Shown: in pieces, positions 1 to 5,172 of the stretch
Layout of the letters: each line of letters begins with the position of its first letter
How positions within the stretch are numbered: position 1 is the first letter of the stretch
NCBI GenBank assembly: GCA_018667995.1
Contig: JABIQT010000827.1
Coordinates: 1-5,376 of the forward strand
DNA length: 5,376 nt
Origin: Candidatus Latescibacterota bacterium
GTDB lineage: Bacteria > JAAXHH01 > JABIQT01
Reading direction: 5' to 3'
Notes under the pieces: model-generated
Told to the model about the DNA's origin: nothing
The model's database searches: none
The model's input: only the letters and a program-made list of their open reading frames with translations
Program-made: the position numbers and the translations under genes

Positions 1-608
1 ATGGTTACCATCGTCGTATTGCTGTTTATGGTTTCATGAATCAGATCGAGATTGTGAGCATAATTCTCATCCAGGCGGACCCCCCGGATTTTCAAATCAA
101 GGCCCTTCGCCTTACGGTAATTCATCCAGGTCATTGCCGGGTCTGTATAACCCGGTCGGGCAAGGATCATCTCTGCGCCTTCTTTCATGGCTTCGGTTGC
201 CATGATGTGCAGCAGAGGGCTGGATCCGCTTGTGACCATGATTGGAGTCATTTCCGCCAGCTTTCGTCGACCCTCCCAGGTACTCGTGTCGCCTTCCGGG
301 AGGTCGATGTTGTGATATCGGCCAATGGCGGCGACGAGGTCAGGTGTTTTCTGGCTACCGTAGCGATTAACGGCGAACAGGTTTTTGGCCACTGCCTCAA
401 TGGCACGAGGGGACGGTCCCAGAGGATTTTCGTTGCCACTGATGCTGACCACCCCAGGTTCGATGCCCCACCCACGCACATCACCGGGTTCTTTGCCCGC
501 TAAGAGCGCGGCTGCCACATTCTGAGCGCTGTATGTCATTGCTCCGACACCGCCCAGCAAGGCTCCTTTCATAAAACCCCGGCGTGAAAAGGCATTTGTA
601 TCGTTCAT
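1..608 (-). CDS. Tat-exported HisC-like PLP aminotransferase (5' part, cut by window edge)
   Basis: This minus-strand reading frame starts with ATG at 608-606 and stays open to base 1, giving 202 codons; the rest lies outside the window. A strong ribosome site (AAGGAG, 622-617) sits 8 nt before the start. Residues 8-14 read SRRGFMK, a near-perfect twin-arginine motif, followed by a Gly/Ala/Leu-rich stretch to about residue 37, so the start that keeps this leader is preferred. The mature part shows class I/II fold-type I aminotransferase features like those of histidinol-phosphate aminotransferase: NENPLGPSP at 59-67, RYGS near 82-85, and TSGSSPLL at 126-133, matching the Gly-Ser-rich PLP-phosphate segment but with Pro where HisC usually has Glu. 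The PLP lysine is beyond the edge. Tat export would fit an enzyme folded around its cofactor in the cytoplasm. Family placement is fairly sure; the substrate is unknown, and true histidine biosynthesis is unlikely for an exported protein. Confidence 0.88.
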   Translation of the reverse strand, partial: MNDTNAFSRRGFMKGALLGGVGAMTYSAQNVAAALLAGKEPGDVRGWGIEPGVVSISGNENPLGPSPRAIEAVAKNLFAVNRYGSQKTPDLVAAIGRYHNIDLPEGDTSTWEGRRKLAEMTPIMVTSGSSPLLHIMATEAMKEGAEMILARPGYTDPAMTWMNYRKAKGLDLKIRGVRLDENYAHNLDLIHETINSNTTMVT

Positions 609-701
609 GGATAACGCTCCTTGTTTTTCGTGGTTGTTTGACACTGCAGACCGCGGCATGTTGGGGCTGGCAGATCTGAGTTCTTTTCTCGCCTACGGTG
701 A

Positions 702-1876: not shown

Positions 1877-1905
1877 TTGACGGTATTGACGCCAGTAATT
1901 ACAAT
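1877..1905 (+). promoter_or_regulatory. Sigma70-type promoter for the two-gene operon
   Basis: TTGACG (1877-1882, 5/6 to the -35 consensus) is followed after exactly 17 bases by TACAAT (1900-1905, 5/6 to the -10 consensus). Transcription would begin near 1912, giving a leader of about 106 nt before the start at 2018. It is the best promoter match I found upstream of the operon and is correctly oriented. Confidence 0.6.
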
Positions 1906-2017: not shown

Positions 2018-2875
2018 ATGGGTAGTTTTCTTGAACAGATGATGAAGATTTCCCTCACTGCTGTGGTCTCTGGCATGGAAACGATCGCCGAAACCATGCA
2101 CGAGGTTCAACAGAAGGCGGAAGCCCCCGATGAGGATGAGAACACCGATGATCCGTATACGTCGGCGTATAACAGCGTGTCCAGACTCGCAATAGTTCCG
2201 CTTATTGAGATCGCCAAGCTCCCGATCACCGTTATCATGAAGACGATTTCCGAAGCCACACAGGGGATTCAAGAACATGGTGAAGAGGGCAATGAGGTGC
2301 ATAGCGGCCAAGAAGAAGAGGCTGTTGACCAAGGCAGAGAAGTCGTCCCGTTGAATGCGCAAGAAGCCGCACTTGAAACCGAGACGACCTTGTCGGAAGA
2401 AGCGGAAGAAATGTATCAAAACACCATCTGGCAGATTGGCAGATCCGGTCGAAACGACTTTCAAGGAAAATGGGCAGCCACGTTCGACTATCAGGTGGGT
2501 ACGGATCTAGATGAAGTCAACAGTCCAGGCATACCTCATCTCATCACAGTGCAGGATGGACCGAAGTCTAAAGGCGCCGCAGAGAAACTCAATGTCCACT
2601 TTGCCCTTGACCGTGACTACGCAGACGGTGAATTGGCTTTCATTTATGATCGGTGGGGCGCCGAAAAAGACCAGGTGTTTGTCGATGGCGAATTGCTGGC
2701 ACCCGTAGGTGGTGTGGGGAAGGGCATGTTCAAGCACGTTGCACTCTCACTCAAAGATGTCTCAGATGGCGACCATGTCATTACGATTACGACCTCAGGA
2801 GAGACTGAGGCCGGGGGACATCGCATTGACTACTTGAAATTATCAGAAATTGAGAAATCCGCAGAGCAGGGCTAG
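2018..2875 (+). CDS. Unrecognised acidic protein: amphipathic N-terminus plus beta-rich, CBM-like C-terminal domain
   Basis: I do not recognise this 285-residue protein as a named family. ATG 2018 follows AGGAG (2001-2005) at a rather long 12 nt; the frame is open only from 2000, and later ATGs at 2039 and 2042 lack a ribosome site. No signal peptide or clear transmembrane helix is seen, and there is no cysteine. Residues 1-35 and 55-87 are predicted amphipathic segments that share a degenerate repeat (METIAETMHEVQQ at 20-32; MKTISEATQGIQE at 74-86). A Glu-rich, probably disordered linker spans about 87-135. Residues 137-275 alternate in a beta-strand manner, from WQIG (138-141) through FIYDRWG (208-214) and DQVFVDGE (218-225) to DGDHVITITTSG (250-261) and HRIDYLKL (268-275). 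This resembles galactose-binding-like or carbohydrate-binding beta-sandwich modules. It is almost certainly co-transcribed with the phospholipase gene 11 bases downstream. A phasin-like or membrane/lipid-targeting partner role is inference. Confidence 0.85.
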   Translation: MGSFLEQMMKISLTAVVSGMETIAETMHEVQQKAEAPDEDENTDDPYTSAYNSVSRLAIVPLIEIAKLPITVIMKTISEATQGIQEHGEEGNEVHSGQEEEAVDQGREVVPLNAQEAALETETTLSEEAEEMYQNTIWQIGRSGRNDFQGKWAATFDYQVGTDLDEVNSPGIPHLITVQDGPKSKGAAEKLNVHFALDRDYADGELAFIYDRWGAEKDQVFVDGELLAPVGGVGKGMFKHVALSLKDVSDGDHVITITTSGETEAGGHRIDYLKLSEIEKSAEQG

Positions 2876-2886
2876 GGATATACAGT

Positions 2887-5172
2887 ATGCCAGAAAAGAA
2901 AAAACAACCGTCGCAAGCTGAGTTACTCGCACACATTCGAGAGACCTATCTGTTTAAGGACCTGAACGAGGAGGTCCTGCAAGATTTGTCGAAGGACCTT
3001 ACCTATCTCAGTTTAGAACCCGGAGAAAATCTATTTCATCAAGGCGACCAAAGCGATTCTACGTACCTGGTGATCGAAGGTCAGTTGAAGGTCGCTATCA
3101 ACCTGGACGACGGCAGCGAGATGTTCGTAGGAGAGAACAAACCGGGGCAGTTAGTCGGCGAAATGGGCGTTTTCACGGGGCAAAGTCGTACGGCGAGCAT
3201 TTACGCCGACAACGATGGCATCCCCGCAGGGCTAGTAAGAATTCCGGAATCTGGGTTCGGCCGCATTGCCTCGACGAATCCAGATGCCCTGGCACAGGTG
3301 GGCGAGACAATTCGTCAGCGTTTGTTCCGAAACCAACTGGACGAAATGTTACCCAATATCTTTGGCGAACTCGATGAGGAGACATTCAACGACATTGAGG
3401 CAGAGGCAGAATGGGTTCAGATTTCTCGAGGGGATGTCCTCATAAAACAGGGCGCCCCCGGCGACAGTATGTACATCCTCATTCGCGGTAGGTTGCAGGC
3501 GAGAGTTAATCTTGAGGATGGACAGGTCATTGTCGTGGGCGAAATCACCCCCGGTGAGAGTGTCGGTGAAATGGCGATGTTCACAGGTGAAACGCGCACT
3601 GCTGACGTTGCCGCTGTGCGTGATACCGCACTGGTTAAATTTGACAAGGCAGGTTTCGATCGGTTGATGGAGAAATATCCCCACGTCATTCGGCAGATTA
3701 CTAACATCGTAATCGGTCGGTTACGGCGCGCGCAGTTCGAGAAAGCCCGATCACACAATGTGACCAATATTGCAGTCGTCCCCATTAATCCCGATGTCCC
3801 GCTGACACAATTTACCAAACGCTTTGTTGCCACACTTAATACGCTCGATACAGCGATCCATCTTAGCAGTCACCGCGTTGATTCCACCCTCGGTGTTCCG
3901 GACATTGCCCAATCAGACGCCGATAATCCGTTAAATATCAAACTCACCGCATGGCTCGATCACCATGAAGCGGAGTATCGCTTCGTGGTCTATCAAGTGG
4001 ATTCGGAGATTTCGCCATGGACATCCAGAGCAATACGGCAAGCCGATCGCATCGTGTTCGTTGGACAAGCCTCCGATGATCCCGCGCAGACCCTGTTTGA
4101 AGCCCGCGTCAACAATATAGCCACGGTCCGCTCGGATCTTGTCTTGCTTCATCCAGATGGTACCCAACAACCCAAGGGGACGATCAAGTGGCTCGCCCCT
4201 CGGAAGATATCCAAGCACTATCATGTCCGCTGGAATCTGGACGGCGATTTTGCGCGGCTGGCACGGTTCATTGCAGGCAAGGCAGTTGGGCTATGTCTCG
4301 GTGGTGGTGGTGCACGTGGATTTGCCCACTTCGGTGTGATTAAGACATTGGAAGAAGAAGGGATGCCGATCGACATTATTGGTGGAAACAGCATCGGCGC
4401 CTACGTCTCAAGTATATATGCGACCGGGCACGCAAAAGGGTGGGATGTCAAAACCATGATTAAGGCTACCAGCAAGGTTTTCTCTCGTTGGCACTATCAC
4501 CTTACCCTGCCGGTCACCTCCATGTTTTCCGATGGCATTCTCGTACATGATATCAAAGAATTCGTAGGTGGTGAGGATATTCAGATCGAAGACCTTTGGA
4601 TTCCATTTTTTTGCGTGTCCAGTAATTTGACCCGGGCAGAAGTCAAGACACACCGTACTGGCCCTTTATGGAGAGCCGTACGCGTCAGTGGGGGGCTTCC
4701 AGCAGTTGTGCCACCGGTCGTTTTCGATGGAGACCTGCATGTGGATGGGGCACTTCTCAACAACCTGCCCATCGATGTGATGAGCCAGATGTGTGACGGG
4801 GGCACGGTGATTGCGATTGATGTCAGCCCAATTGTCGACATGGGTGAGAACGAAACACATGGAGACAGCCTGTCCGGCTGGGATATGCTTTTCAGCAAGG
4901 TCAATCCTTTTGCAGAGAAGATCAAGATGCCCGCCCTACCGACGATCATGCAAAGATCGGCTGAAATTGGTGCTGTTTTACAACTCAAGGGCATTGTGGA
5001 AAAGCTCACAGATGTTTACATATCCATGCCTGTTGAGCATTTTGATATACTTGGGTTCGGTGAGGCTAATAATATCGTTCAGGTGGGTTACAACGAAGCA
5101 CAAAGAAGGATTCTCCCTTGGCTGAAAGAGAGGGAATTAGAGCAAAAGAAAAACACCGTGTCTCTGTCTTAA
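2887..5172 (+). CDS. NTE-like patatin phospholipase with two cyclic-nucleotide-binding domains
   Basis: This 761-residue protein has the bacterial neuropathy-target-esterase architecture. Two CRP-like cNMP-binding domains occupy about 20-135 and 154-286; each keeps the phosphate-cassette Glu and Arg (VGEMGVFTGQSRTAS with E92/R101; VGEMAMFTGETRTAD with E228/R237). The NTE-type linker (about 290-465) contains SPWTSRAIRQAD near 376-387, VLLHPDG at 419-425 and a KWLAPRK segment. The patatin domain has the oxyanion loop GGGGARG (472-478), nucleophile S502 in GNSIG (usually GTSIG) and the dyad Asp D620 in DGA. A family-typical C-terminal tail contains LSGWDML and NPFAEKIK. Relatives such as eukaryotic PNPLA6/7 hydrolyse phospholipids and lysophospholipids. 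Unlike eukaryotic NTE, no N-terminal membrane helix is present. ATG 2887 is preceded by a modest AGGG (2874-2877) overlapping the upstream stop codon, suggesting coupled translation. All key residues are intact, so it should be an active serine hydrolase; ligand and lipid substrate are unknown. Confidence 0.96.
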   Translation: MPEKKKQPSQAELLAHIRETYLFKDLNEEVLQDLSKDLTYLSLEPGENLFHQGDQSDSTYLVIEGQLKVAINLDDGSEMFVGENKPGQLVGEMGVFTGQSRTASIYADNDGIPAGLVRIPESGFGRIASTNPDALAQVGETIRQRLFRNQLDEMLPNIFGELDEETFNDIEAEAEWVQISRGDVLIKQGAPGDSMYILIRGRLQARVNLEDGQVIVVGEITPGESVGEMAMFTGETRTADVAAVRDTALVKFDKAGFDRLMEKYPHVIRQITNIVIGRLRRAQFEKARSHNVTNIAVVPINPDVPLTQFTKRFVATLNTLDTAIHLSSHRVDSTLGVPDIAQSDADNPLNIKLTAWLDHHEAEYRFVVYQVDSEISPWTSRAIRQADRIVFVGQASDDPAQTLFEARVNNIATVRSDLVLLHPDGTQQPKGTIKWLAPRKISKHYHVRWNLDGDFARLARFIAGKAVGLCLGGGGARGFAHFGVIKTLEEEGMPIDIIGGNSIGAYVSSIYATGHAKGWDVKTMIKATSKVFSRWHYHLTLPVTSMFSDGILVHDIKEFVGGEDIQIEDLWIPFFCVSSNLTRAEVKTHRTGPLWRAVRVSGGLPAVVPPVVFDGDLHVDGALLNNLPIDVMSQMCDGGTVIAIDVSPIVDMGENETHGDSLSGWDMLFSKVNPFAEKIKMPALPTIMQRSAEIGAVLQLKGIVEKLTDVYISMPVEHFDILGFGEANNIVQVGYNEAQRRILPWLKERELEQKKNTVSLS

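Follow-up and report, generated by a model that had tools for sequence, protein, structure and literature searches.

An orphan gene directly upstream of a bacterial NTE-type phospholipase gene and its possible role in membrane docking

The stretch of DNA analysed here (the window) is an entire contig (C154) of 5,376 bases, in which a gene for an NTE-type patatin phospholipase (ORF2) follows closely on a gene for an acidic orphan protein (ORF1). The question raised by the locus is whether the orphan protein serves to bring the enzyme to membranes or whether the two genes are mere neighbours. The assembly is fragmented (6.06 Mb in 1,165 contigs, 85% complete); a binning artefact was considered and rejected, as the GC content of the contig (0.513) and its tetranucleotide composition are compatible with the bin, the tetranucleotide correlation of 0.848 being at the low edge of the 0.848-0.953 seen for the other contigs. 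The following features were located:

3-659, minus strand: 5′ part of a PLP-dependent aminotransferase gene (HisC/PRK09105-like), cut by the contig end
979-1587, minus strand: truncated IS256/Mutator-type transposase of 202 aa, with a match confined to the N-terminal half of the family and the remainder not recognisable in 660-978
1877-1905, plus strand: promoter-like match TTGACG-17-TACAAT, not above chance
2018-2875, plus strand: ORF1, acidic orphan protein of 285 aa, pI 4.4, no Cys
2030-2134, plus strand: ORF1 residues 5-39, first copy of an amphipathic, apparently duplicated motif (LEQMMKISLTAVVSGMETIAETMHEVQQKAEAPDE)
2201-2296, plus strand: ORF1 residues 62-93, second copy of this motif (LIEIAKLPITVIMKTISEATQGIQEHGEEGNE)
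2282-2413, plus strand: ORF1 residues 89-132, acidic linker with a net charge of about -14
2414-2872, plus strand: ORF1 residues 133-285, by prediction an all-beta region that may be a jelly-roll binding domain
2874-2886, plus strand: 11-base intergenic gap and SD-like AGGG over the ORF1 stop
2887-5172, plus strand: ORF2, putative NTE-type patatin phospholipase of 761 aa with cNBD1, cNBD2, NTE_Ploop and patatin domains
3415-3678, plus strand: ORF2 residues 177-264, second cNBD with the GE...RTA motif
3760-4236, plus strand: NTE family P-loop-like domain of ORF2
4291-4779, plus strand: ORF2 residues 469-631, patatin domain with GGGGARG (from residue 472), GNSIG with Ser502 and DGA with Asp620

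Codon statistics identify both ORF1 and ORF2 as real genes. The GC content by codon position is 0.61/0.37/0.55 in ORF1 and 0.60/0.39/0.55 in ORF2, the RSCU values of the two correlate with r = 0.79, and the ORF1 frame is the sole positive of six when scored with codon usage taken from ORF2 and the aminotransferase gene. Recomputation of the gene coordinates, the strand and the 11-base gap agrees throughout with the original prediction, which had also placed an SD over the upstream stop codon; the TAG of ORF1 (2873-2875) lies inside GGGCTAGGGATATACAGTATG and is therefore overlapped by the SD-like AGGG. The short gap and this overlap support the two-gene unit that had been proposed, and ORF1 and ORF2 most likely form a small operon, from which both genes would be co-transcribed. 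The further claim of a single upstream promoter, however, is not confirmed, since six promoter-like sites including the one listed above compare with 4.7 ± 2.3 in shuffled sequences.

Judged from its domains, ORF2 is a standard bacterial NTE-type enzyme and thus of an already known kind, as the original prediction had it. The Pfam families PF00027 (cNMP_binding, twice), PF24179 (NTE_Ploop, 121.5 bits at a cut-off of 27, N-terminal of the patatin domain) and PF01734 (Patatin, 97.3 bits) follow one another in NTE order. The first cNBD lies N-terminal to the second, and the GE...RTA motif with the phosphate-binding Glu and Arg is visible in both PF00027 stretches. The patatin domain has the oxyanion GGGxR, the nucleophile GxSxG and the DG(A/G) of the catalytic dyad; Ser502 and Asp620 are invariant across four aligned sequences, and relatives at 33-39% identity have in common the GGGGARG, the Ser of GNSIG/GTSMG and the Asp of DGA/DGG, so that the Ser-Asp site looks intact. 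The N-terminal transmembrane helix, a hallmark of eukaryotic NTE proper, is absent by hydrophobicity, in agreement with what had been claimed for the enzyme: the highest 19-residue Kyte-Doolittle mean is 1.15, which falls within the catalytic domain and does not indicate a transmembrane-like segment anywhere in ORF2.

The same succession of cNBDs, NTE_Ploop and a patatin domain with GxSxG and DG(A/G) characterises the NTE/PNPLA6-PNPLA7/Swiss cheese family, within which ORF2 would belong to the bacterial cNMP-patatin branch. ORF2 has two cNBDs and lacks the N-terminal helix, in contrast to the three cNBDs and the transmembrane helix of human NTE (PMC6995513, PMC9025805). The catalytic domain is also common to the bacterial patatin phospholipases RssA (NCBIfam NF007623) and PlpD (PDB 5fqu), but these matches span the catalytic region only, and the cNBDs and the NTE_Ploop are additional in ORF2. 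Genes with NTE_Ploop are patchily distributed, being present in 5 of 384 genomes of a broad sample that includes the genome studied here, and missing from all 15 further genomes of its order. This genome encodes at least four class III nucleotide cyclases, which were matched at four places, so that a ligand source exists for the cNBDs, and ORF2 is probably switched by cyclic nucleotides.

For ORF1, on the other side of the gap, Pfam, NCBIfam and PADLOC yielded nothing convincing, and PHROGs gave only a chance-level match (E 0.7). A PDB match to Mdm2 (E 0.005) was discarded as acidic low complexity, and one of the N-terminal half to phospholipase C (E 1.9) was taken as chance. Genome searches, run on 59 and then on 384 genomes with its own included, revealed no homologue among the 383 other genomes at E 0.001, and none was found in the plasmids and phages searched. 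The matches within its own genome are likewise due to chance, one lying inside a pilin-like operon gene and the other in the wrong frame of an MFS gene. Pattern scans of genome_contigs, which covers close relatives only, and of viral_contigs were negative as well; a genome_contigs pattern scan with the enzyme also gave nothing, although whole-genome searches did detect relatives of it. By these searches ORF1 is an orphan restricted to its lineage, which is itself sparsely sampled.

The two amphipathic segments described in the original prediction are borne out in the N-terminal third of ORF1, where the maximum 18-residue moment is 0.453 in residues 2-36 (p = 0.029) and 0.507 in residues 48-90 (p = 0.022), each relative to shuffles of the same residues. 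The amphipathicity is of modest degree, and ORF1 has no clearly transmembrane-like segment. Alignment of residues 5-39 with residues 62-93 (LEQMMKISLTAVVSGMETIAETMHEVQQ against LIEIAKLPITVI---MKTISEATQGIQE) gives a local score of 41 versus a shuffle mean of 22.9 (p 0.002), which suggests that the segments arose by internal duplication of a motif of about 33 residues. This repeat is a new observation that had not been part of the earlier description.

For the C-terminal region of ORF1, a binding-type beta domain is a fair guess from the predicted strands, and the more specific likeness to a CBM could not be upheld. Both ORF1 models are poor, with pLDDT of 39 and, for the C-terminal region with its eight predicted strands, a mean of 45. 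The low-confidence model is beta-rich and suggests a beta-sandwich arrangement similar to that of GH2-type sugar-binding jelly rolls and of CUB and CBM-like domains, with a TM-score (by query) of at most 0.45 and Z of about 8, which is background level, the same as that of unrelated models; sequence similarity to these folds is absent, and neither a family nor a PDB match was obtained, with no CBM or sugar-binding family appearing even at E up to 10. The top structural rows, from the claudin-binding domain of an enterotoxin, were rejected as a generic beta-sandwich matched by a low-confidence model at 7-9% identity by VIA-align.

In the main reading, which is given a probability of about 40%, the locus is an operon for a cyclic nucleotide-gated, soluble NTE-type phospholipase and an accessory protein that places it on the membrane. 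ORF2 would then be a soluble (lyso)phospholipase in which the Ser502-Asp620 dyad cuts the acyl esters of phospholipids, and its two N-terminal cNBDs would report the cAMP or cGMP made by the class III cyclases of the cell. ORF1 would be a lineage-restricted accessory protein in the cytoplasm, with two amphipathic repeats that lie on the inner membrane and a beta domain that binds either ORF2 or a ligand, and co-translation of the two proteins would help to put the enzyme at its substrate. Docking of the enzyme by ORF1, for which the original prediction had named a membrane, granule or glycan as the target, is a plausible idea based on weak amphipathicity and a low-confidence beta prediction.

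About equally likely is that ORF1 and ORF2 are mere neighbours, sharing one transcript or even residing on two. ORF1 would then be a lineage-specific gene, either of recent origin or quick to evolve, and functionally unrelated to an enzyme that reaches membranes via its own catalytic domain. The argument from eukaryotic NTE, on which a docking partner had been postulated, stands only in part: the N-terminal helix of human NTE is indeed needed for ER localisation, but the catalytic domain alone has a high affinity for lipid droplets, an affinity kept in check by the regulatory region (PMC6995513), and the missing helix of ORF2 is therefore by itself no reason to expect such a partner. The absence of ORF1 homologues and of a promoter match above chance likewise agrees with unrelated neighbours, as does the IS256 fragment upstream of the pair, because of which the local gene order may be recent. 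Against it, an 11-base spacing on the same strand with an overlapping SD is what translationally linked genes typically show.

Relatives of the enzyme were compared at 12 loci, one each in genomes G072, G120, G142 and G278, two each in G384 and G385, and four on alphaproteobacterial plasmids. An ORF resembling ORF1 is found at none of the 12, the upstream gene of G072 being out of view since only about 340 bases of that contig precede the ORF, and no other neighbour is conserved. As far as these loci indicate, the pairing of NTE-type genes with an ORF1-type gene is not general. The conserved-linkage evidence gives the docking idea no support and, with ORF1 having no known homologues, does not decide for or against a functional link between the two genes in this lineage.

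A PHA storage-granule system, with ORF1 as a phasin-like coat protein and ORF2 as a granule-associated patatin depolymerase, is highly improbable. Haloarchaea are known to have patatin-like PHA depolymerases, and the acidic ORF1 with its amphipathic helices is phasin-like in general style, but it has no phasin family match, and PhaC_N (PHA synthase) is not matched at E ≤ 0.001 in the 85% complete genome, which also makes the suggested docking on polyester granules less likely. There is similarly very little to recommend an anti-phage system in which an accessory gene accompanies a cyclic-nucleotide-activated effector, a phospholipase of the Pycsar or CBASS type. The cNBDs of ORF2 do score against PADLOC Pycsar models and its patatin part weakly against CBASS phospholipases, but the top PADLOC matches span generic cNBDs only, and the NTE_Ploop and tandem cNBDs are an NTE-type arrangement. 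No cyclase is found beside ORF2 on the 5,376-base contig, although this ends about 200 bases past ORF2 and a cyclase gene may lie beyond.

Should the pair work as a unit, as in the main reading, it would provide a simple bacterial model for bringing NTE-type phospholipases to membranes, a step that bears on human PNPLA6 disease. The more far-reaching idea that ORF1 represents an undescribed family of membrane-docking adaptors, in which a duplicated amphipathic segment and a ligand-binding beta domain supply in trans the targeting that eukaryotic NTE has in cis, is unlikely. On present evidence, the locus presents one more bacterial NTE-type enzyme adjoining an orphan gene.

In G120, an alpha/beta hydrolase gene lies directly upstream of the NTE-type gene, and in G072 a downstream PF01553 acyltransferase gene (L018:2442-3833, plus strand) overlaps its end, which suggests a coupling of phospholipid deacylation and reacylation; such lipid or ester genes close to the enzyme would fit an involvement in phospholipid turnover. 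Other upstream neighbours include an HD-domain gene at one of the G384 loci, a PLP aminotransferase in Methylobacterium and a serine hydrolase in Ensifer. On pAMI5 of Paracoccus aminophilus, about 3.8 kb separate a cNMP-patatin gene from an adenylate/guanylate cyclase gene (L050:1-1068, minus strand) on the opposite strand. Within the window, the aminotransferase at the contig edge has a possible Tat signal and is perhaps exported.
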